The translations under genes were made by a program, and so were the position numbers. Shown piece after piece: positions 4,591-22,242 of a DNA stretch of 64,000 nucleotides. The DNA is from Candidatus Calescibacterium sp. (GTDB taxonomy: Bacteria > Calescibacteriota > Calescibacteriia > Calescibacteriales > Calescibacteriaceae). Below the pieces are notes generated by a model, which did not search any database, was not told where the DNA came from, and saw only the letters and a program-made list of their open reading frames with translations. How positions within the stretch are numbered: position 1 is the first letter of the stretch; each line of letters opens with the position of its first letter. The stretch spans positions 1 through 64,000 of the forward strand of contig JANXBU010000009.1 in NCBI GenBank assembly GCA_025060505.1, given 5' to 3'.

Positions 4591-5540
4591 TATGTACCTT
4601 CAAGAATTTTTCCTAGCTCCCTGACAGTTCTTATTTTTCTGAACTTGTTTACTATCTGTTTCAACTTCTGAACATCCTCAATATTTCTAAGCTTTGATAT
4701 CAGCTTTCGGGAACGAGCGCCAAATTTCGCCTGAATTGCTAACTCCAAACCCTTGATCAAACCCTCTTTTATGCCTTTTTCTCTGCCTTCTTTTAAACCT
4801 TTTTCTCTGCCTTCCTTTAAACCTTTTTCTCTACCCTCTTTTAGACCTTTTTCTCTGCCTTCCTTAATTCCTCTCTCTATTGCTTCCCTGAAAAGGTCAT
4901 ATTCCATCAGATCTATCTTTTGTGTCTCTTGCATAAATTTTTCCACCTCCTTATCTCTCTTTGCTAGCTTACTTAGTATGTATATTTTAGTAATCAAAGA
5001 TGCAGTTTGCTCTTCCGCAAGTTTGTAATCAATTATCCTCTGCAAAAGTTTCCCAACATCACAATCTTTACTTAATATTCCAAAAGCATTTATGTTCGGA
5101 TTATCAAAACTCAAAAATCTTTCAAACGGTATCTCACATAGGTCTATAACTATGTATTTTGATCTCACGTATGAAAAAATCTCCTGACCGCCTAAACCCT
5201 CTATCTTTATCTCTTCATCAAGGGAATCTTTTACATTCTTACCACAAGTTAGAACTATTTGTATCAAAGGATACTCTGGAAATTTCAATTTTACATCACA
5301 CCAATATCCAAGCATCCTTATCGGAAAATTTTTTTCGTAATACAGCTGAATCTCCACCTGAGATAAAAACCTATACGAACCAACAGCGCACTTGTATATG
5401 ATATCAACCCTCCTTTCTCTGACAGACTGAAACTCTACATTCAAAACTTGTAGCTCTTCAACTTTAAATCCAACTATCATCAAAAGATCTTTCTCCACTC
5501 CCGCTATCAGATCCTTGAAAGATATATCAAATTTTCCCAT
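4590..5540 (-). CDS. Rpn/transposase-like PD-(D/E)XK nuclease family protein
   Basis: This 316-residue protein has the layout of the recombination-promoting nuclease (Rpn) family: an N-terminal nuclease-like region with RVDIIYKC followed by a strand with VEIQLYY (a D...E-x-Q type core), a helical middle, and a highly charged stretch of repeated KEGREKGL octapeptides at about residues 224-260. The C-terminal tail is helical (KLISKLRNIEDVQKL). Such proteins are multicopy in many genomes and are annotated as putative transposases, although Rpn proteins are shown to be nucleases that promote RecA-independent recombination. A second member lies 170 bases upstream on the same strand. No flanking inverted repeats were seen. 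The repeat number can vary by slippage without breaking the frame. Confidence 0.7.
   Translation of the reverse strand: MGKFDISFKDLIAGVEKDLLMIVGFKVEELQVLNVEFQSVRERRVDIIYKCAVGSYRFLSQVEIQLYYEKNFPIRMLGYWCDVKLKFPEYPLIQIVLTCGKNVKDSLDEEIKIEGLGGQEIFSYVRSKYIVIDLCEIPFERFLSFDNPNINAFGILSKDCDVGKLLQRIIDYKLAEEQTASLITKIYILSKLAKRDKEVEKFMQETQKIDLMEYDLFREAIERGIKEGREKGLKEGREKGLKEGREKGLKEGREKGIKEGLIKGLELAIQAKFGARSRKLISKLRNIEDVQKLKQIVNKFRKIRTVRELGKILEGT
4776..4871 (-). repeat. 24-bp coding tandem repeat, four units
   Basis: Four 24-bp units (4776-4799, 4800-4823, 4824-4847, 4848-4871) encode the repeated KEGREKGL-type octapeptide of the overlapping Rpn-like gene. Units 1-3 differ at only a few positions; unit 4 is degenerate at its end. 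Because the unit is a multiple of three, gain or loss of units would keep the frame. Confidence 0.85.
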
Positions 5541-8069: not shown

Positions 8070-9809
8070 GTGGGCAAGTCAAAACAAGAAGTATTTGAAG
8101 ATATATCAGAACTCTGTAAAGGACTTTATGAAAACAGAAATCTCAGAGATCTTCCAGAGTTCGTTGTTTCTCCGGAAAAGCTTATTCAATTTGAAACCAA
8201 AATCAAAAACAATGGATACAACATGGTTCTTGACCTATTCGGAGTCGATTTCAAGGATAACCAGAAGCTACAAGAATATGCAGGAATAAAATCAAGATTT
8301 GCTGTAATCTACCACTTCTTAAAAATCCCACAGAATGAAAGGATAAGAGTTATAACCCCTGTTCCCGAGAACAACAGAGTTCCTTCTTCATATCAGCTTT
8401 ACAGAGGCGTAGATTGGTTCGAGCGCGAAGTCTATGACCTTTTTGGAATAATCTTCGAAGGACACCCTGACCTAAGAAGAATACTTATGCCAGAAGATTA
8501 CGAAGGACATCCACTTAGAAAAGATTTTCCAACAAAAGGAGTTAAAGAATATATAGGAGGGAAATTTACTCCAAATCTTGTAAGGCTACCCGGAAAAGAA
8601 AAACCTTCTGACATATTTGAAGAGGGTGCAAGAAACATAATAAATGTGGGTCCAACGCATCCAGCAACTCACGGAACATTCAGAATGATATTTGAACTTG
8701 AGGGAGAAGATATAATAGGTGCAGACCTTGAAATAGGATATCTTCACAGAGGTGTTGAGAAAAACGCAGAAAACATGCGGTGGGAAGACTTCATTCCTAT
8801 GACAGATAGATTGAACTACCTTTCTGCTTACCTGAACAATATGATTTACACCGAAGCTGTTGAGAGAATGACCGGAATATGGAACGATGTACCTCGCAGA
8901 GCAAAATACATAAGAGTTATTTTGGCAGAACTATCAAGAATAGCAGATCACATTGTGAGCATTGGAACAATGGCCGTTGACCTTGGAGCTCTTACACCAT
9001 TCTGGTACCTCTTCAAAATCAGAGAAGAAATATACTCGGTATTTGAATGGACCGTTGGAGCAAGACTCACAACATCTGGAACATCTTTTGGTGGAGTAAG
9101 AGGAGACTTCAATGAAAAAGTTATAGAAAAAATAAGAAATATAATAGATAAAGAACTTCCAAAGGCACTCAAAGACCTTGATAACCTACTTACCAAAAAC
9201 AGAATTTTCATAGACCGAACTCGTGGCATCGGAAAAATCTCAGCAAAAGATGCAATTGAATGGGGCTTCACAGGTCCATCTCTAAGAGGTTCAGGCGTAG
9301 CATGGGACATAAGAAAAGTTCAAACATACGGACTTTACGAGGAGTTCGACTTTGAAATTCCTGTGGCCACAGAAGGAGATGTTTATTCAAGGTACCTTGT
9401 TAGAGTAGAAGAAATGTATCAGAGTGCAAAAATAGTTCGTCAAGCCCTTGATAATCTTCCACAAGACGGAACGAAAATAGGAACCGACAAAAAATCTGTC
9501 CTACCCTCTCTGCCAGACAAAAAATATGTCTACACACAAATAGAAGCTCTTATACATCACTTCAAAGGAATGGCAGAAGGAGTAGTTCCGCCATTCGGAT
9601 GGTACTACTTTGGAGGAGAAGCCGCAAACGGAGAACTGGGATTCTTTATGATATCTGAAAACAAAAGGATACCATGGAGAATAAGAATAAGACCCCCATG
9701 CTTTGCTATATATCAAGCTTTCAGACATCTGGTTCTTGGACACAAATTGGCTGACTTCATAGCTATACTCGGAAGCATAAACATAGTAGCCGGAGAACTT
9801 GATAGATAA
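8070..9809 (+). CDS. nuoCD: NADH-quinone oxidoreductase, fused subunits C and D
   Basis: This is the peripheral-arm core of respiratory complex I, which passes electrons from NADH or ferredoxin to quinone at the cytoplasmic face of the membrane. Residues 1-170 are the 30-kDa NuoC part with the signature DWFEREVYDLFGI and the block GHPLRKDFP. Residues 190-579 are the 49-kDa NuoD part with NVGPTHPATHG (quinone-site histidine), IGYLHRGVEK and the C-terminal AILGSINIVAGELDR. C-D fusions occur in several bacterial groups. Translation appears to start at a GTG (8070) without an SD site, since no in-frame ATG lies just upstream. No other nuo gene is in the window, so the complex must be encoded in pieces elsewhere. 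Confidence 0.95.
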   Translation: MGKSKQEVFEDISELCKGLYENRNLRDLPEFVVSPEKLIQFETKIKNNGYNMVLDLFGVDFKDNQKLQEYAGIKSRFAVIYHFLKIPQNERIRVITPVPENNRVPSSYQLYRGVDWFEREVYDLFGIIFEGHPDLRRILMPEDYEGHPLRKDFPTKGVKEYIGGKFTPNLVRLPGKEKPSDIFEEGARNIINVGPTHPATHGTFRMIFELEGEDIIGADLEIGYLHRGVEKNAENMRWEDFIPMTDRLNYLSAYLNNMIYTEAVERMTGIWNDVPRRAKYIRVILAELSRIADHIVSIGTMAVDLGALTPFWYLFKIREEIYSVFEWTVGARLTTSGTSFGGVRGDFNEKVIEKIRNIIDKELPKALKDLDNLLTKNRIFIDRTRGIGKISAKDAIEWGFTGPSLRGSGVAWDIRKVQTYGLYEEFDFEIPVATEGDVYSRYLVRVEEMYQSAKIVRQALDNLPQDGTKIGTDKKSVLPSLPDKKYVYTQIEALIHHFKGMAEGVVPPFGWYYFGGEAANGELGFFMISENKRIPWRIRIRPPCFAIYQAFRHLVLGHKLADFIAILGSINIVAGELDR

Positions 9810-9918
9810 AACCTGTGAGAAAAGAAAAACTCAAAACGAAAAGAAAAACCGAAAACAACAGAAGAAAACAACAAAAAATAAAATACTAATAAAAAATATT
9901 TTGTTTAATTCAATAAGT

Positions 9919-11064
9919 ATGACAATACTTAAACCATTTTACGCATACAGATACTCAGATAAATTCAAAGAAAAGATAAGCGAACTGATATGTCCTCCCT
10001 ATGATGTGATAGATGAAAAATTACAGATGGAACTTTTTAAAAATCCATACAATTATGTAAGAATCGTTCTTTCACCACACGGGCATGACCACGCGGCAGA
10101 AGCTCTGAAAAAATTTATCTCAGATGGAATAATCATAAAAGAGCCCAAAGAGAAGATATACATACTGGAACAGTCCTTTACTCTGGGAAACACAACAAAC
10201 AAAGTAGTCGGTATAATAGCTCTGATTTCAAAAGACGCTAAAATACTTGTACATGAGCAAACAAAATCCAAAGTAATTCAAGATAGAATAGAACTCCTTG
10301 AAAAAACCGGTTTCAACACGTGCCCCATAATGCTTTTCGCTAAAAACACAAATATCAGAGACTTTTCGGAAAAAACTCAAAAAGAAAAGATATTTGATTT
10401 TGAGTACATATCAGATGACTTTAGAATAACAATAAAAGGTTCAATTTACTCCTCAGAAGACTTCTCAATACTCAATGAGCTTGAAAAAACTTACTTCTTC
10501 ATAGCAGACGGACATCACAGATTCAAAGCCATAAAAACAGTGTATGAAAAAAAGAATGAAAAATATCTTATGGCATACATAACAGATGAAAACTCCGGAA
10601 TGAAAATATTTCCAATAATACGTGAGTTAAAACACAAAAACGATGTTCTGGATAAAATTAAGAGCTTATCAAAAGAAATTCACCATCTAAACTTGAAAAA
10701 CTCTCACAACATAGGAGAATGGTTTGACGTATTCAAAAACAATAAATTTGACTGTATCTTTATAGACGAGAAAAATACATTAAAAGTCAATTTCCAAAAA
10801 AATCTTGAAGAAAACACAATAAATTTCATACATAACTATATATTAAACAATTTTGAATTATCATTTGAGCATAGCATTCTTAAATCGTTAGAAAATATGA
10901 AAGGGAGGAAGATAGAATGCTCAATAATACCCAAAGTTTTATCTGTTCAGGAAATTTGGGAAACAGTGGAAAGAGGAGAAATTCTTCCTCCAAAGTCAAC
11001 ATACTTTTGGCCCAAAATACCGTCCGGTCTAACTCTGAACAGAACAAATTTTTCAAATATCTAA
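9919..11064 (+). CDS. DUF1015-family protein
   Basis: The 381-residue protein carries the family marks in order: ILKPFYAYRY at the start, ICPPYDVID near residue 23, a central DGHHRFKA near residue 200 and ILPPKSTYFWPKIPSGL at the end. The open frame extends upstream to 9799, but those 40 residues are almost all K, N, T and Q and overlap the end of nuoCD, so the ATG at 9919 is preferred. The family is widespread in anaerobes and thermophiles; its molecular function is not established here. A radical SAM gene follows 84 bases later on the same strand. Confidence 0.85.
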   Translation: MTILKPFYAYRYSDKFKEKISELICPPYDVIDEKLQMELFKNPYNYVRIVLSPHGHDHAAEALKKFISDGIIIKEPKEKIYILEQSFTLGNTTNKVVGIIALISKDAKILVHEQTKSKVIQDRIELLEKTGFNTCPIMLFAKNTNIRDFSEKTQKEKIFDFEYISDDFRITIKGSIYSSEDFSILNELEKTYFFIADGHHRFKAIKTVYEKKNEKYLMAYITDENSGMKIFPIIRELKHKNDVLDKIKSLSKEIHHLNLKNSHNIGEWFDVFKNNKFDCIFIDEKNTLKVNFQKNLEENTINFIHNYILNNFELSFEHSILKSLENMKGRKIECSIIPKVLSVQEIWETVERGEILPPKSTYFWPKIPSGLTLNRTNFSNI

Positions 11065-11148: not shown

Positions 11149-12249
11149 ATGGCAATACAGGTAAAAAATCAACTTAACGATACTATATCGTATCTAAACA
11201 GAACCAGTGTTAAAGAATCAAATGGGAAGGAATTAATATCATACGAGCCAATAACAAAACAACTCCAGATGCTTGAAATTGAGATAACTTTAAGGTGCCC
11301 GCTAAGATGTATACATTGCAGCGTAAACGGAGGAGAAAGCAAAGTAGATATACCCCTTGAAAAATTCCATGAAATAGTTGATGACTGCGAGCAAATAGGA
11401 ATAGAATCCCTAGACATAATAGGTGGAGAGCCCCTAGCTTATCATCACATATACGAGGCTCTAAGATATGCCATACAAAAAATACCAAAAGTATATCTCA
11501 ACACTGCTGGATACTTCTTCAATGAAAAAATAATACAGAAATTACAAGAAACAGGACTTAAAGATATTTTCATAAGCTTAGATGGAGCTACACAGGAAAA
11601 GCACGAAAAAATAAGAGGACCCGGAACATTTTACAAAACTCTGGATGCCATCAAGAAAATGTCAGAAGCTGGATTTTACCTGATTGTTTCCTTTGTAGCC
11701 AATGCAGAAAACTACACAGATATTCCAGCAATGCTTGACCTATGCGAGAGATACGGAGCAAAAAAGCTATTCATCCTTTCTCTCATACCAGAAGGCAGAG
11801 GCAAAAACATAAAAAACCTAGTACTCAAAGAACACATGATCAAAACAATCTTTGAATCAATAAGTAAATACAAAGGACCAGTTGAAATAGAACTTGATTG
11901 CTCTTTGAAAACAGATTTTGAGGACTTCCCGGATTATGTAAAAGTCTGCCCAGCTGGAACAACATTCTGTACCATAAAAGTCAACGGTGATGTGATACCA
12001 TGTGGCTTTCTCCCTTCAAAGTTCTCAATTGGGAACATCTACCAGAAAAGATTTTACGATATATGGAACGACGATCGGAAATTTTACTTCTGGAGAAAAG
12101 GTATATCTGGCTGCCAAACCTGCTCAATATACAAAGAATGCAGAGGCGGATGCCAAGCTCTGAAATTCGGAAAAGTGTGCGAAGGAGATACTCAAAAGAG
12201 AATCAATCTTCTAAAAGAAATAAAAAACATCACAAGAACATTAATATGA
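11149..12249 (+). CDS. Radical SAM protein with SPASM domain
   Basis: A 366-residue radical SAM enzyme. The S-adenosylmethionine iron-sulfur cluster motif CPLRCIHC uses C50, C54 and C57, and IGGEP follows near residue 106. The C-terminal SPASM region holds VCPAGTTFCTIK, a GDVIPCGFLP segment and the closing CQTCSIYKECRGGC, which would bind extra iron-sulfur clusters. Such enzymes modify ribosomal peptides, mature enzymes or act in heme d1 and heme synthesis; the substrate cannot be told from this context. No precursor peptide gene is visible nearby. The start is set by AAGGAGGG about ten bases upstream, one of the few strong SD sites in the window. The gene is convergent with a lipoprotein gene. 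Confidence 0.9.
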   Translation: MAIQVKNQLNDTISYLNRTSVKESNGKELISYEPITKQLQMLEIEITLRCPLRCIHCSVNGGESKVDIPLEKFHEIVDDCEQIGIESLDIIGGEPLAYHHIYEALRYAIQKIPKVYLNTAGYFFNEKIIQKLQETGLKDIFISLDGATQEKHEKIRGPGTFYKTLDAIKKMSEAGFYLIVSFVANAENYTDIPAMLDLCERYGAKKLFILSLIPEGRGKNIKNLVLKEHMIKTIFESISKYKGPVEIELDCSLKTDFEDFPDYVKVCPAGTTFCTIKVNGDVIPCGFLPSKFSIGNIYQKRFYDIWNDDRKFYFWRKGISGCQTCSIYKECRGGCQALKFGKVCEGDTQKRINLLKEIKNITRTLI

Positions 12250-12282
12250 TAGACTGATAAATAAATAAACAATTAAAAGAAA

Positions 12283-12305
12283 GGAGGGAGAAAAACCCCC
12301 TCCCT
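12283..12305. terminator. Hairpin between convergent genes
   Basis: GGAGGG (12283-12288) can pair with CCCTCC (12298-12303) around a short A-rich loop, with an alternative register one or two bases further. It is the only GC-rich patch between the convergent radical SAM and lipoprotein genes, so it may terminate both. There is a moderately T-rich stretch on the plus-strand side. Confidence 0.55.
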
Positions 12306-12327: not shown

Positions 12328-13950
12328 TCAATGCATTCCGTGGTGATGCGATGATTCTCCACCAGACATCATACCATACCCTTTTCTTTTAACATGATCT
12401 TTGATCTTATCTTTCATATTTTCACCAGCTGAACAAATATCTGCAATGAAAACAACAGTCTTATTATCTACTTTTGATTTCACCCCGACATCACAAACAC
12501 ATCCTTCATTGAATACTATTTCAAGATCTATACTCTCACCATTCCTAACTACATAACCATAGATTATACCTCCAACTGGCCTATTACAACCCCTCTGGAA
12601 CACCACGTCTTTGAGCTCTGCAATTATTTTCTCTCCCTGATCTATGATAATCTCTATAATTCCTGAAAGTTTCACACTCCCTTCACCCTTAACTGCAGTC
12701 AGCGTATGGTTATATGATCTTATGACATCGCCATTAACTTTAAGATAACTTGTGATTGAAAGAGAAAATGTTTTTCCATCCTGAGTCTTTTCATGCTTTA
12801 CAGATTTGTATCTATAACCAGAAAGTGAAAAAGAAGTTCCAGAAGATGAGTAGCCAACATCAACAGAGTCCTCCCTTGCAATAAACTTTGGATCTCTTGA
12901 CTTTTCTCTTTTGTTCAAACCCTTTAGAGCTATTGTTCCGTTGTCTGAAACTATGTTCAGATCATACGATACCAATGAGTTTCCCTTCTCTCTATCTTCA
13001 ATATCCACTACCCCATCTACGGTATAACTTGTGTTATCATCTCTTCTAGTTAAACTAAAATCTCGAAAAACAACTTTGAGTTTAGATTCTGTTTCTCCTT
13101 CCTGATAACTCGCATTGTGAGAGATGCTTCCTTCAAGCGAAATTTTGTCTTCTGTATCCTCAAGTCTGACTCCGTTTACGGTCTGATCCCATATCACTGA
13201 ATACAGTGCAGAAGTGACGCTTCCAGAAAGTGTTCCGGAAACGAAATTGATATATTTATCCTTACTTTTCTCAAATTTCAAATTATTGAAGGTCAGCGAG
13301 TATGAGAAATTAGATGGAACGTTCCCTTTCAGAACAATGTAAGATGTTCCGGAAACGGAGTATCCACTATCAATCTCGCATCGGACAAACTCAACATTAC
13401 AGGAAATATCAAATGGAGAAATTTTCAGGCTTCGGCAACCTAGAAGATAAATATTTCCTTCCTGCCAACACTTACTTAAATTTCTCGCAAGACTAACGAT
13501 TGCGCTTGAATATTTATGAAGAATTTTTTGCCCCACTCTTATGCTTTTTTCAGCCTTTTTAAGATTATTCAAATCATCCTCCGATATATACTGAGAAAAA
13601 AGATCAGAAAAATAAAACTCAGACGTGATCCCATCTTCGGTATCCCTGAAAGGTTTCTCATATATTTCATCACTATCTGAGTCATCTCCTTTCTCAAAGA
13701 TATTCAAATAAGCAGCTCTTGCTGTCATTATCTCATTTATAGAACCTTCTATCAAAGCAGGGTTAAGTTCAGTTTGAGCTAAAATATAAAATTCACCCAA
13801 GACATCCTCAGAAGCAGAATTCAATTTGTTTGCCTGATCCGCCGGAATTTTATCTAATGATGTTTCCTGAGTTTGGGTTGATCTTTCTCCGGCACACCCG
13901 AAAATGGCCGCCAAAATAATAAAAAAGAAAGCTTTTCTTAATTTCATCAT
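12328..13950 (-). CDS. Large beta-rich lipoprotein with histidine-rich tail
   Basis: A 540-residue protein with a type II signal peptide (MMKLRKAFFFIILAAIFGC, lipidated Cys at 19). After a short helical region come many alternating hydrophobic strands rich in S, T, V and D, with paired cysteines near residues 159-187 and 473-515. The last residues (SGGESSHHHGMH) form a histidine-rich tail that could bind metal. I recognise no named domain. Its architecture resembles the smaller lipoprotein at 51791-52627. The start is supported by GGGAGGT 13 bases upstream. The gene is divergent from the FHA activator, with two operator-like sites between them, so it may be that activator's target. Confidence 0.75.
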   Translation of the reverse strand: MMKLRKAFFFIILAAIFGCAGERSTQTQETSLDKIPADQANKLNSASEDVLGEFYILAQTELNPALIEGSINEIMTARAAYLNIFEKGDDSDSDEIYEKPFRDTEDGITSEFYFSDLFSQYISEDDLNNLKKAEKSIRVGQKILHKYSSAIVSLARNLSKCWQEGNIYLLGCRSLKISPFDISCNVEFVRCEIDSGYSVSGTSYIVLKGNVPSNFSYSLTFNNLKFEKSKDKYINFVSGTLSGSVTSALYSVIWDQTVNGVRLEDTEDKISLEGSISHNASYQEGETESKLKVVFRDFSLTRRDDNTSYTVDGVVDIEDREKGNSLVSYDLNIVSDNGTIALKGLNKREKSRDPKFIAREDSVDVGYSSSGTSFSLSGYRYKSVKHEKTQDGKTFSLSITSYLKVNGDVIRSYNHTLTAVKGEGSVKLSGIIEIIIDQGEKIIAELKDVVFQRGCNRPVGGIIYGYVVRNGESIDLEIVFNEGCVCDVGVKSKVDNKTVVFIADICSAGENMKDKIKDHVKRKGYGMMSGGESSHHHGMH

Positions 13951-14030
13951 ATCTACTTACCTCCCAATCAGAAAGGCAAAAAGTGTTCCAAGAAAAATAT
14001 ATGTGATAAACACAATAAGAATAAAAAAAT

Positions 14031-14069
14031 GGATATTATAGTATCCAAAAACTGGATACAAGAGTATCT
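14031..14069. promoter_or_regulatory. Two tandem 16-bp operator-like inverted repeats
   Basis: GGATATTATAGTATCC (14031-14046) and GGATACAAGAGTATCT (14054-14069) both fit the pattern GGATAY-N4-GTATCY, with five of six arm bases pairing in each. Their centres are 23 bp apart, about two helical turns. They sit in the only gap between the divergent lipoprotein and FHA-activator genes, where a dimeric regulator could act on both. Confidence 0.6.
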
Positions 14070-14124
14070 ACATTAAAACTTGAAAATCAAAACAAAAAGA
14101 AAAAATACACAAACCAAAACACTA

Positions 14125-14130
14125 AATAAT
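14125..14130 (+). promoter_or_regulatory. -10 box with leaderless geometry
   Basis: AATAAT ends exactly six bases before the ATG at 14137, so the predicted transcription start is the start codon itself. This favours 14137 over the in-frame ATG at 14080. Confidence 0.4.
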
Positions 14131-14136
14131 TATTCA

Positions 14137-15456
14137 ATGGAAAAAACAATAAAACTAGACAAAAAACAAACAGAAATAGATATATGTGAACTTGAAATTC
14201 TAAAAGGACCAGACAAAGGTAAAAAATTCAGGTTATCATCAAGAGAAACAACAATAGGAACATCCCCAACCTGTGATATAAATCTTTCAGATCCAACAGT
14301 TTCTCGTCAGCACGCAAGAATAATATGGGACGATCAGAACAAAGCTTTCAGAATTGAAGATCTAGGAAGCACAAACGGAACATACCTGAACGACATTCGT
14401 ATAACATCAGCGTTTCTATCTACAAACGGTATAAATGTGAAGTTAGGAAACACCGAACTAATATTCAGAGCTATTGGGAAGAAAAAAGCTCTTGAAATTT
14501 TTCCAGAAGATAACTTTTTTGGATGTGTTGGTGAGAGTTTAGCGATGAAAGAAATTTTCGCAACTGCTTTCAAAGTAGCTCAAACAGATCTCAATATTCT
14601 AATAGAAGGAGAAACGGGAGTTGGTAAGGAAGAACTTGCAAAAGCAATACACTTGGCAAGCCCACGAAAAGATGGAAAGTTTGTTATATGCGATCTTACA
14701 ACCATAGATAAGAACCTTTTCTTATCTGAACTTTTTGGATACGAAAAGGGAGCTTTTACCGGAGCCGAAAGAAGCAAAGAAGGATTGGTTTCACTGGCCA
14801 ATCGCGGAACTTTGTTTCTTGATGAAATAGGTGAAATACCTCCACAGGATCAAGTTCAACTTCTCAGATTCGTTGAAAAAAAAGAGTTCCGTCCAATCGG
14901 CTCAACTAAGAATCTTTATGTTGACACAAGAATAATATCTGCGACATCAAAAAATATATCAGATGAAATTGAGAAAGGAAATTTCAGGTCTGACCTCTTT
15001 TTCAGGTTAGCCCAATTCAGAATAAAAATACCACCACTACGCGAGAGAAAAGAAGATATATTCCCCCTAATAAGACATTTCCTCAACAAACTTTCCGGAA
15101 ACGAAAAAGAAGTACAGAAGCTCTACCAAGAACTTCACAAAAACTCCACACTTATTTTAGGATACAGCTGGATGGGCAACGTAAGAGAACTAAAAAACTT
15201 TGTTGAAAGATTTTACAATATATGGAAAATAACAAACGAATTTTACATTGAGCTACCAATTGAACAAAAAGTTCAAGAAAACACATCAGCAGATTTCAAA
15301 TCAATGAAACAGAAAATCATTGAGGAATTTGAAAAAAACTATGTCAGAAACCTGTATATTTCCTGCAAAGGAAACATATCTGAGTGCGCAAGAGTTGCAA
15401 AAATAAACAGAAAATACATGGAAAAACTTGTCAGAAAATATATCAGAAATGAATAA
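14137..15456 (+). CDS. Sigma-54 activator with N-terminal FHA domain
   Basis: The 439-residue protein joins three parts. An FHA phosphothreonine-binding domain (about residues 28-95) shows TTIGTSPTCDINL, VSRQHARI and LGSTNGTYLN. An AAA+ sigma-54 interaction domain follows with Walker A GETGVGKEE (about 158-166), the sigma-54 contact loop GAFTGA (205-210) and Walker B TLFLDEIGEIP. A Fis-type DNA-binding helix-turn-helix closes the protein. The GAFTGA loop is intact, so it should open sigma-54 promoters. The FHA domain implies control by a Ser/Thr kinase, and a kinase gene starts about 90 bases downstream on the same strand. Similar FHA activators are known from myxobacteria. The first 19 codons of the longer frame are low-complexity and were left out. 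Confidence 0.92.
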   Translation: MEKTIKLDKKQTEIDICELEILKGPDKGKKFRLSSRETTIGTSPTCDINLSDPTVSRQHARIIWDDQNKAFRIEDLGSTNGTYLNDIRITSAFLSTNGINVKLGNTELIFRAIGKKKALEIFPEDNFFGCVGESLAMKEIFATAFKVAQTDLNILIEGETGVGKEELAKAIHLASPRKDGKFVICDLTTIDKNLFLSELFGYEKGAFTGAERSKEGLVSLANRGTLFLDEIGEIPPQDQVQLLRFVEKKEFRPIGSTKNLYVDTRIISATSKNISDEIEKGNFRSDLFFRLAQFRIKIPPLRERKEDIFPLIRHFLNKLSGNEKEVQKLYQELHKNSTLILGYSWMGNVRELKNFVERFYNIWKITNEFYIELPIEQKVQENTSADFKSMKQKIIEEFEKNYVRNLYISCKGNISECARVAKINRKYMEKLVRKYIRNE

Positions 15457-15543
15457 CCATAGAAAAATACCAGACCCGCAAACATACAAAAGATAAAAAT
15501 TCAGAATAAATTTAGATTGGTAGTTAAAGAAGTTATCAGAAAG

Positions 15544-16959
15544 ATGAGATTTGATAGAAAAATCCTTATATGGGAAGGAAATCTCTCAAAAACATATCTT
15601 GCATACGATAAAAAACTATCTAAAAATGTGATACTGAAAGAATACCCAAAAGAAAATAGGGAATACGCTCAAAAAGAATACAACATACTTTCAAAGATAA
15701 AATACAAAACCCCGGAAGTCTATGAATTTTTTGAAGACGAAAACTACTTATGCATAGTCAGAGAATACATCCCCGGAAAAACCCTGAGAGAATTGATTGA
15801 AGAGAAAAGTCAGATACCTCCGAACATCTTGCTTTTTATATGCTATGAAATTTTAAGATTTCTTGATTTTATACACTCAAAAGGAGAGTTCAACGGAGAC
15901 ATAACCCCGTCAAACATACTTATAGGATTTGATGGAACAGTAAGAATACTTGACTTTGCGAAGTCAGAAGAACTTATTACACCAGAATACTACGACAAAA
16001 ATGAAAAAAAAGATATATCGGCAGACCTCAAAGCCCTTGGAAAAATTATTGATAAAATATGCAAGAATGAATCAATCAAGGAAATATCAAAAAAAGCACA
16101 ACAAGGAAAATACAAAAACCCATCAGATTTTATTTCAGATATAATCAAAGTTATTCCGAAATTTGATATTGCTCTTGAAAAAGATCTCAGCATGTTTGTA
16201 ATAGGTCAGGAGAAATATAATACAGAAAACAATACAAGAAAATTAAATGAAAACATCACAAAATTTCTGAAAAACATAGGAATTGCTGTTGTTTCATTTG
16301 CTCTTGGTGTAGTATTCATACATTCTTTAAAATTCATCAAAAACAAATCAGCTCCAGAAATGGAGAAAACTAATGAAAAAAATATTTCAAACATTGAAGA
16401 ATCAAATCAAACATCAACCGAATTGAAAAATCAGCAGGAACCAGAAAGATTAACTGAAAGTTCAAAAAGATTAGCCGAAGCTACCTCAGTAATAATTCAG
16501 AACACAGATCCGAAAGGTTCAATAACAAAAGAAACACAAAATGTAAAAACAGTTAAAGAAACTAATGAAATACAAAGAAAAGCTCAGAACGATGAGAAAG
16601 AAAAAACGAGATCAGAAAAAACAAAGGAATCAAAAGAAAATAGAAATGCTGGAATAATTACAGAAACGAAAATCAGGCAAGAAGAAAATGAAGAAAAATA
16701 CGGATATCTTTTCATAAACACTGTTCCAGAATGCGAAGTTTGGATAAACGGAAAATATATAGATAAAACACCAATAGTAAACCTGAAAATTGAAATTGGA
16801 GAGAAAGAAATTGAATTCAGGACAGAAGATAAATCAGAAAAGACAAAATTACATATAAAAAGCGAAGAAAAGATTTTCCTTTTCGCTGATCTTAAAGGCA
16901 AAAAAATAGAGATAAAAAAAGAACTTGCAGAAAAAACTGAAACCCAACAAAATAAATAA
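15544..16959 (+). CDS. Membrane Ser/Thr protein kinase with C-terminal PEGA domain
   Basis: The 471-residue protein begins with a divergent kinase domain. The ATP lysine is in VILKEY (K32), the catalytic-loop aspartate and asparagine are in NGDITPSN (D119, N124), and the metal aspartate is in LDFAKS (D137). The HRD and DFG motifs have become NGD and DFA, the loop lysine is threonine, and the glycine-rich loop keeps one glycine, so activity is likely but not certain. A single membrane span (about 240-262) leads to a K/E/T-rich spacer and a PEGA domain (GYLFINTVPECEVWINGKY...). The kinase would be cytoplasmic and the PEGA domain outside. An upstream in-frame TTG at 15517 is an alternative start. 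It probably phosphorylates the FHA activator encoded just before it or one of its partners. Confidence 0.8.
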   Translation: MRFDRKILIWEGNLSKTYLAYDKKLSKNVILKEYPKENREYAQKEYNILSKIKYKTPEVYEFFEDENYLCIVREYIPGKTLRELIEEKSQIPPNILLFICYEILRFLDFIHSKGEFNGDITPSNILIGFDGTVRILDFAKSEELITPEYYDKNEKKDISADLKALGKIIDKICKNESIKEISKKAQQGKYKNPSDFISDIIKVIPKFDIALEKDLSMFVIGQEKYNTENNTRKLNENITKFLKNIGIAVVSFALGVVFIHSLKFIKNKSAPEMEKTNEKNISNIEESNQTSTELKNQQEPERLTESSKRLAEATSVIIQNTDPKGSITKETQNVKTVKETNEIQRKAQNDEKEKTRSEKTKESKENRNAGIITETKIRQEENEEKYGYLFINTVPECEVWINGKYIDKTPIVNLKIEIGEKEIEFRTEDKSEKTKLHIKSEEKIFLFADLKGKKIEIKKELAEKTETQQNK

Positions 16960-18221: not shown

Positions 18222-18330
18222 AAGTCTTTTTTCCCACTCCCTCACAAGTCAAATATTAATACTACTGAATAATTGAATATTCATTTACCATATAAATACA
18301 GATTTGCATAATTACAAAGATCCAAAAATC

Positions 18331-18388
18331 AAAACAAACAAAAAAACAAACAACAAACAAACAAAAAACAAACAAAAAAATAAAAATT
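18331..18388 (+). repeat. A/C-rich (CAAA)-like tract
   Basis: About 58 bases are almost only A and C on the plus strand, with irregular AAAC units. The tract directly precedes the -10 box of the next gene. Comparable A/C-rich tracts precede the starts at 9919 and 14137, so it may act as an upstream promoter element. Confidence 0.55.
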
Positions 18389-18393
18389 ACGAA

Positions 18394-18399
18394 TATATT
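18394..18399 (+). promoter_or_regulatory. -10 box with leaderless geometry
   Basis: TATATT ends six bases before the ATG at 18406. This places the expected transcript start at the start codon and supports 18406 over the upstream frame extension. Confidence 0.5.
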
Positions 18400-18405
18400 T
18401 TACTG

Positions 18406-18966
18406 ATGAGAAGAACTCTCTTCATATTATTACTCTCATTTGCCTTTATTACTATAAGCTATGGACAAATTTTCAATGTTCCAACTGGCTCCTTTGCCAC
18501 CGGGACCATATTAACTGGAATATCAGTAGCTCTTCCGGGAGAAGTAATAGACCCATCTCCTGTTGTCTTCAGAATAGATGAAGGATTTTTCACACCAGCT
18601 GATTCCATTGTAGATATGTCCGGATGCTATGCTCATGGAACTGCTTACTGGGCAGATTACATAAGCAGAGTCGTTATAGAAATAAAAGATATAACATGCC
18701 CACAAGGAGAAAAAACATATCACATAGAAGCTCTTGGATACCTATACGATGAAAATGGAGGATTCGGCTTTGAAGGAGAAATAACCAGATATGAAAAAGA
18801 AGTATGGGGTATAAGAATAAGAACCGGCTATGCAACTGTTCCTGCTTTTTCAAGAGGAATTCTGTTCCTCCGACAGGGATTCAACTTTGAAAGAAAAGAC
18901 CTGAAACATCCAAGATGGAGAAGACCGCTTACATTCCCAGAAAACTTCAAAGACTTCCCACCTTAA
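18406..18966 (+). CDS. Secreted stand-alone TraB/TrbI (VirB10-like) domain protein
   Basis: The 186-residue product has a signal peptide (MRRTLFILLLSFAFITISYG) and then one domain that resembles the C-terminal part of the TraB/TrbI/VirB10 family. The order is PTGSFATGTILTGI, SPVVFRID, GCYAHGTAYWADYISRVVIEI, ITCPQGEK, then YLYDENGGFGFEGEI. The two cysteines (GCY, ITC) sit where the TraB family has a conserved pair. Real VirB10 or TraB proteins also have a cytoplasmic tail, a membrane helix and a proline-rich linker; all are absent. No other type IV secretion gene lies nearby. It may be a repurposed periplasmic or outer-membrane beta-domain. Recognition is by eye; the secretion call is firmer than the family call. 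Confidence 0.6.
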   Translation: MRRTLFILLLSFAFITISYGQIFNVPTGSFATGTILTGISVALPGEVIDPSPVVFRIDEGFFTPADSIVDMSGCYAHGTAYWADYISRVVIEIKDITCPQGEKTYHIEALGYLYDENGGFGFEGEITRYEKEVWGIRIRTGYATVPAFSRGILFLRQGFNFERKDLKHPRWRRPLTFPENFKDFPP

Positions 18967-19134: not shown

Positions 19135-22100
19135 TTAGTCCTGAGAAAGAGTTGCATAAGCTGCAAAACCATTCCATATAAATACAATGTGAGGAACTCT
19201 TTTGCTATCCACCAATATGTTTACTCCCCTATTTTGTGGGAATAAATTTACCAGAGCCACTGTATACTTCTTCCACTGTCCACTCCATAAAGTTGCATAA
19301 CGAATCTCACCGAATGGTTTTGAGTAATACGCAATGTGAGGATTCCCTAAATTATCCACAGTTATAGAACACGATGATATAGGAACAGCTGAATCAACTC
19401 CTTGTATAGGATCAAAACTGCTATTTTTAGCTTTTGCATAGAATAAATTTGTAGCGTTTTCACCTGCAAAGCATACATGAGTTGTACCATCTGAAAATAA
19501 AGCTATACCAACACTTTTTACATTGTAAGTATAAGTTGTAATCCTTATTGGAACCAACCAAGCACCAAAATTATATGGAGTAAGATTCCTTGTATAATAT
19601 GGATAATATATTCCTCCATCCAGCCCAGCAAATATTATGTGAACTGTTGCTCCGTTTGGACTAACAACCATATCAATATCTGTAACACTCATCGGCGATA
19701 TTATAGCAGACGATAATGAAAAATTCGGAGTCAAAGGAACAGCATAAGTATGAACAATTGAAATACCTGTTGAATATACAACGTGTGTAGCGCTACCGCC
19801 AAAGTAAGATACATTCTCAACAATATCCAAAGAGCTAAATCTTCCATGAGAATTTAAATTTTTAGGCGACTCCCATTGATTCGATTGATTCGAATAAGAT
19901 ATAACACAGACACCATAACTAGCACATGTTCCTCCACTTGTTACAGAATAAGAAAAATAAGCCGTTGCTCCGTTAGAAAAAACATCTATTGAGCAGTTAT
20001 AAATATTGCCGGAACCAAGATAGTGAGTTTGAGAATACCAAACATTGACGGTTTTTCTGTAATAGCCAAGCCACATTGGACCACCATATGCAGTATAGTT
20101 GAAAGCTACATGAAGATCACCATTAACATCGATGGAAGAATCTACATAATGAACAGGAGATAAAGAGCTTATTGTCTCCCAATCAAAAATCAGATTATCT
20201 ATTACTCCATCGCAATTTTCATCTCCCCCATCCACTATCTCAGTAATACTTGGATTAAATTTCGGATTTCCGTCATCACAATCACCTCGGTTTGAAACAA
20301 ACCCTGCTGGTGCAGAGCAAGCCTGAGTAGTAGAATTAGGATTTCCATATCCATCTGAATCTGAATCACGGTAGAAAGTTATAAGAACTCCATCATCTAA
20401 TATACCGTTGCAATTTTCATCTACACCGTCACAGTTTACCTCGTTTATACCGAACCTTACAGATGAATTAGCATCGTTGCAATCAAGAGAATTTTCCGAC
20501 CAAGCACCTGATAACTCTAATCCGTTTATATCTCTTAACTTGTTTGAAAGATCCCTACAAGCAGAAGTGATACCAGATGAGCTACCCTGTCCATCTCCAT
20601 CACCATCTTTATAAAAGTAAGATAAAATACCATCATTCACAAAACCATCACAATCCTGATCCAGAGTATCACATATCTCAATAGAAGTTGGTTTTATCAT
20701 ACTGTTTGAATCATTGCAGTCAAGATTATTCATAACATACCCATTTGGTTTTGAGCAAGCTTGTGTAGTAGAGTTAGGATTTCCATATCCGTCTGAATCT
20801 GAATCACGGTAGAATACAAGATAGACAAATTCGTCTATATCTCCGTTACAATTATCATCTTTCCCGTTGCATATTTCTACCGCGCCCGGATGAACAGACA
20901 CATCAGAATCATTGCAGTCATTTGTATTCCCTACATAACCATAAGGTGCATAGCAGTCTTCGACATAATTCTGACCATCACCAAAACCATCACCATCTCC
21001 ATCTCTATAAAATTTTGTCAATATGCATTCTGGAAACAAACCTAAGATACCTAAATCAACCACCTGACCGTTTCTTACAGATGCTATCTCTATGCCTATC
21101 TCATAATCACTTCTTATAAACATAAGAGTATAGCTTCCGGGGAGCACATCTGATAATGTAAAGCTCCCATCATTTGTTGTCACAGTAGCATTCCCAGATG
21201 GTAATAATATAACAGTCACACCTCCCACTGGTTTTGTTGTCACCCAGTTATATACCTTCCCCTTTATAGCACCTAATTTCAAGTTGTTCTGTAAAAGTCT
21301 AACTTTTATCTCCTGACCTTCAACGGTTGCAATTTCCATCTGATAACCCTCTTTCCACACAGTTATAGTTTTTGAATCATCTGAGATTTGAAAATTTCCA
21401 TATCTATCTGAAATAGCTGACTTACCTGTATCTGATACAATAAGAGCACCTGCAACAGGCTCATCATTTTGATCAACAACCTTTCCTGACCTAAATTTTT
21501 GCTCCACGCGTTCAAGTTCAAACTCACCTATGAAAACAATTGTTCCAGATTCTATTTGAACACCGCGCGTAATGTCACTTTCATATCCATACTTTTCTAT
21601 GACAAAATCATAAGTTCCAATAGGTATATCTCCCATGATAAAGTTTCCGTCTTCATCTGTTATAGTAACCATAGGAGTTCCAGGCACATAAACATAAACT
21701 CCCTGTGCAGAATCAGAGCCCTTCAGTTTAACTTTTCCATAAATACCTCCGGTTGCATATATCATTATTTCACCCACATCTTTCTTTTTGTTTTTTATAT
21801 CTTCCTGGGTTATTTCAATAACTTGTCTGACTTTATAGCTTTTTCCGTCCTTCCTTACAGCTCCAACCGAAAGAGTAAATTTGCACGGACAACCAGAGAC
21901 TGAAACCGGTAAAGAGAAATTTCCTTCCGTATCTGATTCGGTAGATACTCCCTGCTCTTCCACTGCAACCAGCGCACCAGCAACCTTTTGTTTTTCATCT
22001 TTTTTGAACAAAGGGGAGCGAGCGGTGACTATTCTACCAGTTACAATTCTACCTGTAACAATTCTAGCTGTAACTATGCCCTGCTCCTGCACAAAGCCCA

Positions 22101-22242
22101 ATTCAGCAGACACGCTTCCCGTAATTTCTACCCAATCCTTTCCTTTCTCTTTATCAATTTGATTACCATTCTTTGCACCTTCCTGACAAGCTGAGAGAAA
22201 CAAGACTGCAATTGATAAAAATATCAACGATCCTGTTTTCAT
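19135..22242 (-). CDS. Large lipoprotein: carboxypeptidase-like beta domains, four MopE-type repeats and a beta-rich C terminus
   Basis: The 1035-residue protein has a lipobox signal (MKTGSLIFLSIAVLFLSAC). An IVT[AG]R pentapeptide is repeated four times near residues 55-74. Several carboxypeptidase-regulatory-like beta-sandwich domains (about 75-400) show phrases such as DEDGNFIMGDIPIGTY. Four MopE-type putative metal-binding units (about 405-685) alternate a D-x-D-x-DG-x-G loop (FYRDGDGDGFGDG, FYRDSDSDGYGN) with DCND...EICNGKDDNCNGDIDE. The remaining 350 residues contain repeated strand-turn units like a beta-propeller (DVNGDLHVAFNY, NLGNPHIAYY). It is probably an outer-membrane surface protein. 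MopE-type units are typical of deltaproteobacteria and related groups, where they are thought to bind Ca or Cu. Confidence 0.88.
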   Translation of the reverse strand: MKTGSLIFLSIAVLFLSACQEGAKNGNQIDKEKGKDWVEITGSVSAELGFVQEQGIVTARIVTGRIVTGRIVTARSPLFKKDEKQKVAGALVAVEEQGVSTESDTEGNFSLPVSVSGCPCKFTLSVGAVRKDGKSYKVRQVIEITQEDIKNKKKDVGEIMIYATGGIYGKVKLKGSDSAQGVYVYVPGTPMVTITDEDGNFIMGDIPIGTYDFVIEKYGYESDITRGVQIESGTIVFIGEFELERVEQKFRSGKVVDQNDEPVAGALIVSDTGKSAISDRYGNFQISDDSKTITVWKEGYQMEIATVEGQEIKVRLLQNNLKLGAIKGKVYNWVTTKPVGGVTVILLPSGNATVTTNDGSFTLSDVLPGSYTLMFIRSDYEIGIEIASVRNGQVVDLGILGLFPECILTKFYRDGDGDGFGDGQNYVEDCYAPYGYVGNTNDCNDSDVSVHPGAVEICNGKDDNCNGDIDEFVYLVFYRDSDSDGYGNPNSTTQACSKPNGYVMNNLDCNDSNSMIKPTSIEICDTLDQDCDGFVNDGILSYFYKDGDGDGQGSSSGITSACRDLSNKLRDINGLELSGAWSENSLDCNDANSSVRFGINEVNCDGVDENCNGILDDGVLITFYRDSDSDGYGNPNSTTQACSAPAGFVSNRGDCDDGNPKFNPSITEIVDGGDENCDGVIDNLIFDWETISSLSPVHYVDSSIDVNGDLHVAFNYTAYGGPMWLGYYRKTVNVWYSQTHYLGSGNIYNCSIDVFSNGATAYFSYSVTSGGTCASYGVCVISYSNQSNQWESPKNLNSHGRFSSLDIVENVSYFGGSATHVVYSTGISIVHTYAVPLTPNFSLSSAIISPMSVTDIDMVVSPNGATVHIIFAGLDGGIYYPYYTRNLTPYNFGAWLVPIRITTYTYNVKSVGIALFSDGTTHVCFAGENATNLFYAKAKNSSFDPIQGVDSAVPISSCSITVDNLGNPHIAYYSKPFGEIRYATLWSGQWKKYTVALVNLFPQNRGVNILVDSKRVPHIVFIWNGFAAYATLSQD
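20316..20814 (-). repeat. Two nearly identical 61-bp copies inside the MopE region
   Basis: Copies at about 20316-20376 and 20753-20814 differ at only a few bases and both encode FYRDSDSDGYGNPNSTTQAC. This is much closer at DNA level than the other MopE units, which suggests a recent duplication or gene conversion. Confidence 0.75.
22026..22077 (-). repeat. 15-bp coding tandem repeat
   Basis: Roughly three and a half 15-bp units encode the four IVT[AG]R pentapeptides next to the lipidated N terminus of the MopE lipoprotein. The unit length preserves the frame, so the linker could vary in length between strains. Confidence 0.8.

Follow-up and report, generated by a model that had tools for sequence, protein, structure and literature searches.

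A predicted kinase-linked sigma54 regulon of surface lipoproteins with paired enhancer-like dyads

Three genes in region 12328-16959 of the window analysed here (the whole stretch of 64,000 nucleotides, from an organism with a 2.3-Mb genome), taken with their DNA-level wiring and the link between kinase and activator, very probably belong to a kinase-linked sigma54 regulon of surface lipoproteins. They are a predicted lipoprotein gene on the minus strand of the ORF list and, on the plus strand, a sigma54 activator gene and a kinase gene, these two recognised by profile searches. The initial annotation had described these genes together with a pair of operator-like sites, and all are present where it placed them, although two of the gene starts required correction. 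The activator was assigned to the ATG at 14137 rather than the TTG at 14080 of the ORF list, and the kinase to the ATG at 15544 rather than the TTG at 15517, because the aligned orthologues begin exactly at these points. With these starts, the lipoprotein and activator genes are separated by an intergenic region of 186 bp.

Scanning upstream of 13950 for -24/-12 sites revealed a predicted sigma54 promoter, TTGGAACACTTTTTGCC (13975-13991, minus strand), reading towards the lipoprotein gene and positioned 25 nt before its ATG. Under a home-made consensus weighting this was the top-scoring -24/-12 site in the 64-kb window (both strands scanned), and about 0.0008 sites of this score are expected by chance per upstream stretch in simulated sequence. 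Behind the promoter, the operator-like pair resolves into two 18-bp dyads, TGGATAC-N4-GTATCCA, with centres 23 bp apart: a promoter-proximal candidate enhancer, TGGATATTATAGTATCCA (14030-14047), which is a putative activator site found in the same register in two relatives, and a promoter-distal one, TGGATACAAGAGTATCTA (14053-14070). From base composition, a genome-wide total of 0.0002 exact copies of this pair would be expected. The predicted -24/-12 site and the two dyads are arranged as in a sigma54 promoter that has a pair of enhancers. The distance from the centre of the proximal dyad to the -24 GG corresponds to n + 0.8 helical turns in four of five promoters (40, 40, 50 and 82 bp), and is 42 bp in the fifth, the C67 promoter of genome G001 described below.

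To follow these elements beyond the window, we compared five genomes of one family, 82-86% complete: the window's own (G000), G001, G002, G003 and G004. The gene rpoN is present in the window's genome, as in all five (5/5). The activator (66-67% identity) and the kinase (40-41%) form a divergent pair in both G001 and G003; the lipoprotein gene is ~34 kb from this pair in the former and on a separate contig in the latter. The three-gene order, whose conservation the initial annotation had proposed to check, is thus not conserved. In alignment, the G001 and G003 lipoprotein genes are nevertheless preceded by a -24/-12 site at -46 and by the two dyads, still in 23-bp register; all three genomes that have the activator (3/3) thus show the dyad pair and the promoter ahead of the lipoprotein gene, ordered alike. 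In G002 and G004, where lipoprotein and rpoN are present, we detected no activator or kinase orthologue, and the lipoprotein upstream regions contained neither the dyads nor the -24/-12 site; both genomes do have other sigma54 activators. The dyads and promoter therefore stay with the target and not with the neighbour, which argues for control of the lipoprotein in trans in G001 and G003, where activator and kinase lie elsewhere. Absence of synteny, which had been named as a refutation of the original proposal, thus concerns the lipoprotein only, and is answered by the sites shared in trans.

Taken alone, the presence or absence of the activator versus that of the dyads gives a Fisher p = 0.1. 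Just three genomes have the system, of which two are closely related, and completeness is 84-85% in those that lack the activator. It is therefore the match in sequence, and not the count, that carries the weight. Sigma54 control of the lipoprotein, strongly supported by the promoter, the dyads and their conservation, is the best-supported step of the predicted scheme. The linkage of kinase and activator genes also held: the two adjoin in 3/3 genomes, in two different arrangements, an adjacency that argues for a functional link between them. That the activator generally regulates itself through the dyads was considered and rejected, as neither G001 nor G003 has a dyad before the activator.

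The activator (14137-15456, plus strand, 439 aa) matches the Pfam families Sigma54_activat (PF00158, 2.2e-60), FHA (PF00498, 1.7e-18) and AAA_lid_14 (6e-14), the FHA domain (residues 57-113 in the numbering of the longer ORF) preceding the AAA+ domain. GETGVGKE (Walker A), GTLF(L/I)DEIGE (Walker B) and GAFTGA are common to the three orthologues, and the C-terminus carries a conserved GNISECARxAKxNRKYMEKLxRKY, Fis-like by eye, in which Pfam does not call HTH_8. This FHA-AAA+(GAFTGA) protein with a putative Fis-type C-terminus is, as predicted from its domains, an FHA-type sigma54 enhancer-binding protein (FHA-EBP). Its FHA domain departs from the canonical phosphothreonine-binding set of Gly-Arg, Ser, His and Asn-Gly at one position: when aligned with GarA, all three orthologues have Thr (IGTSP) at the usual Arg position, with VSR.H and STNGT retained. 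In canonical FHA domains this Arg contacts phosphothreonine. In FHA-EBPs of other lineages this position is occupied by S, K or G; the missing Arg therefore does not exclude membership of the FHA-EBP class, of which the Thr may be a feature.

The neighbouring gene (15544-16959, plus strand) encodes a 471-aa protein that matches PF00069 (Pkinase) at 2.6e-20, above the cut-off, and is ordered as a cytoplasmic kinase domain, one transmembrane segment (about 16270-16340, by eye), a low-complexity linker and a putative C-terminal PEGA domain. Residues K32, E45, D119, N124 and D137 are invariant in the orthologues. Canonical HRD and DFG motifs and a canonical activation segment were not found: NGD for HRD, and DFA (DFA or DCA across the orthologues) for DFG, occupy the motif positions, and the segment is almost absent. 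By its sequence, the protein is classed as a membrane Hanks-like kinase of putative activity. The PEGA outer part described in the initial annotation (16700-16820, plus strand) is divergent and predicted to lie outside the inner membrane. A PF08308 match recurs at the same place in the three orthologues but stays below the Pfam cut-off in all of them (17.1 bits, E 0.005, in the window kinase against a cut-off of 20.8; 15.6 and 17.2 bits in the others; E range 0.005-0.015). Single-sequence structure prediction of this region gave a mean pLDDT of 56, too low for a fold search.

The presumed target, a predicted surface lipoprotein of 540 aa (12328-13950, minus strand; ORF list and alignment of homologues), begins by eye with a basic start, a hydrophobic run and a Cys. 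Its signal peptide ends in FGC, and the lipobox is loose across homologues (IFGC, YFGC, QSC, INC). In alignment the protein shows conserved Cys residues and the C-terminus GESSHHHGMH. No family in Pfam or NCBIfam matched it. A search of 60 genomes, those beyond the family being from the same domain, gave homologues (26-37% identity) in four genomes only, all from its own family; the lipoprotein family is, on this search, restricted to the source lineage. Its predicted structure, from the single sequence, had a mean pLDDT of 36, too low for a fold search. The His-rich tail noted earlier is real in the window lipoprotein but is not conserved, being absent from G001, G002 and G003; elsewhere a His/Met tail is found only in the G004 homologue, in a genome without the activator. 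We therefore rejected the tail as a defining feature, given its absence from 3/4 genomes with homologues and its retention in one without the regulator. Downstream of the gene is a predicted intrinsic terminator (12281-12305, minus strand), whose 10-pair stem runs into a T-rich tail.

Further candidate targets emerged when TATCCA-N5-TGGATA-N6-TATCCA was sought in the window's genome at no more than one mismatch. Two places matched (0.0097 expected), the lipoprotein and C27:227330-227370. The C27 promoter, CTGGCATGATTTTTGCA, had the highest -24/-12 score found (15.1), and precedes a 42-aa ORF and then a 656-aa lipoprotein. In G001, a pair with no more than two mismatches and a -24/-12 site, ATGGAACAGATTTTGCA, lie on C67 before a CarboxypepD_reg-like lipoprotein gene. 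Homologues of the C27 and C67 genes in other genomes are without the sites; we therefore rejected both as conserved targets, leaving the lipoprotein of the window as the only core target. The 42-aa ORF (within L160:9064-9340, in G000) contains a hydrophobic, signal-peptide-like segment and is possibly a leader or a small membrane peptide. The C67 gene has an in-frame TAG in its signal-peptide region in this assembly (L161, about 4600-4660), and the next gene downstream encodes a metallopeptidase of M6 type (immune inhibitor A-like).

Several other features of the surroundings were recorded. The radical SAM/SPASM gene at 11149-12249 was rejected as a partner, with no match in the regions fetched around the relatives' lipoproteins, and no type VI secretion genes were recognised adjoining the locus. 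A second putative lipoprotein, of 1035 aa (19135-22242, minus strand), has repeated DGDGDGFGDG and DCND...PGAxEICNGKDDNCNG-type motifs, and a 220-aa protein (18304-18966, plus strand) has a TrbI-like match just below the Pfam cut-off (34.7 versus 35 bits). On the same strand, the single ORF at 8070-9809 apparently fuses NuoC- and NuoD-like complex I subunits (by eye), and the listed TTG start of the DUF1015 ORF at 9799-11064 gives a Lys/Asn-rich leader, an ATG at MTILKPFYAYRY being likelier. Identical 29-mers at C18:6635, C19:38 and C34:11970 of G000 suggest a repeated element in the window's genome.

We propose that the FHA-EBP would bind the dyad pair, which lies 40-80 bp ahead of -24/-12 promoters, and that, once bound, it would remodel sigma54-RNA polymerase, turning on surface lipoprotein genes, chiefly 12328-13950. 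Its activity would be set by the neighbouring one-transmembrane kinase, whose outer PEGA domain would face the periplasm or cell wall and might report the state of the envelope. Most likely, kinase and activator would be coupled by the FHA domain, through recognition that depends on phosphorylation or on docking of the kinase; that phosphorylation itself acts through this domain, with an active kinase and an FHA domain that reads phosphate, we infer with about even confidence.

A related pair exists in an unrelated lineage. There, genome G135 encodes a kinase that keeps its HRD and has four strong PEGA repeats (2.6e-56); a few bases separate this gene from an FHA activator gene downstream. A PEGA-kinase adjoins an FHA activator in 5/8 genomes of this order, G135 counted (loci L212, L222-L224 and L226). 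The pairing is therefore recurrent and not a curiosity of the window. Both systems place a kinase directly beside an FHA-EBP; canonical HRD and four strong PEGA repeats in G135 contrast with NGD and one divergent, putative PEGA domain in the window, which gives a weak match to one G135 repeat in profile comparison. Our literature search returned no paper joining 'PEGA domain', 'kinase' and 'FHA'. These pairs may represent a widespread and undescribed signalling class, in which a PEGA membrane kinase and an FHA sigma54 activator with a non-canonical FHA domain (no Arg) govern surface lipoprotein genes, here with a reduced kinase lacking the activation segment; we hold this broader view tentatively, at somewhat less than even confidence.

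The departures from canonical motifs could also mean that the kinase is a pseudokinase or scaffold, and that the PEGA/transmembrane protein binds the activator directly, for example by membrane sequestration, as PspA holds PspF, with no phosphorylation and the same DNA targets. NGD for HRD, DFA/DCA for DFG, the near absence of an activation segment and the FHA Thr, all shared by the three orthologues, fit such an arrangement, which we nonetheless regard as rather unlikely: no orthologue has lost the Lys, the Glu, the catalytic Asp, the Asn or the metal-binding Asp; the S, K or G at the FHA Arg position in other lineages' FHA-EBPs would make the Thr a possible class feature; and the related pair of G135 has an intact HRD. 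Moreover, the window kinase has weak NCBIfam matches to Bud32-type kinases, which function without an activation loop, using a short GD..N motif.

Assignment of the dyads to the FHA activator depends on a different set of observations. Several further sigma54 activators are encoded in the window's genome, the helix-turn-helix sequence does not reveal binding specificity, and the upstream region of the activator itself lacks a dyad in G001 and G003, all of which would fit sites that belong to another regulator, whether a repressor or another sigma54 activator, with the FHA activator a chance neighbour in the window. We consider this improbable, since all three activator-bearing genomes have the dyads while the two activator-less ones, which do have other sigma54 activators, lack them in front of the lipoprotein, and since in the window the dyads sit in the activator's own upstream region; we thus infer that the FHA activator, rather than another, would bind them. 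Taken literally, the first model would have three genes kept together as a cassette, PEGA sensing the envelope, a phosphorylation step and, as the output, a His-tailed lipoprotein that binds metal; it agrees with the gene content and promoter of the window. It is very improbable in that form, however, with the lipoprotein unlinked in two relatives and the distribution of the His tail described above. The kinase-linked regulon acting on its lipoprotein promoter, in trans where necessary, is the reading that we prefer.

Ser/Thr kinase input to sigma54 transcription is known mainly from myxobacteria, in which, to our knowledge, few chains from kinase to activator to target have been fully joined. 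In an otherwise isolated lineage, comparative genomics brings the parts of the predicted regulon into view at once, from kinase and activator to enhancer sequence, promoter and target genes. The result is a small regulon open to testing, with a DNA motif by which to recognise it elsewhere. Two biochemical questions follow: whether an FHA domain would still read phosphate without the Arg, and whether NGD and DFA motifs are compatible with an active kinase.

The FHA-EBPs of Myxococcus xanthus probably receive Ser/Thr kinase input. Such FHA-type enhancer-binding proteins of M. xanthus were reportedly the subject of work by Jelsbak, Givskov and Kaiser in 2005 (PNAS 102:3010; cited in PMC12288465 and PMC4320627). 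Like the window activator, they carry an FHA N-terminus on a sigma54 AAA+ activator, and the predicted regulon is a variation on this FHA-EBP/kinase scheme with readable targets. It differs in belonging to an unrelated lineage, in having a PEGA-bearing kinase next door, in the Thr at the FHA Arg position, and in enhancer sites and target genes that are readable from sequence. A membrane Ser/Thr kinase acting on an FHA protein, as predicted in our case, is also seen in PpkA/Fha1 of type VI secretion, where the output is post-translational, the assembly of the secretion system, whereas here it would be sigma54 transcription (PMC10482370). On the DNA side, the predicted system resembles NtrC-type control, with two dyads upstream of a -24/-12 promoter and helical phasing (~n + 0.8 turns in 4/5 promoters here), but the receiver domain and histidine kinase of NtrC-type systems are replaced by an FHA input and a Hanks-like kinase.
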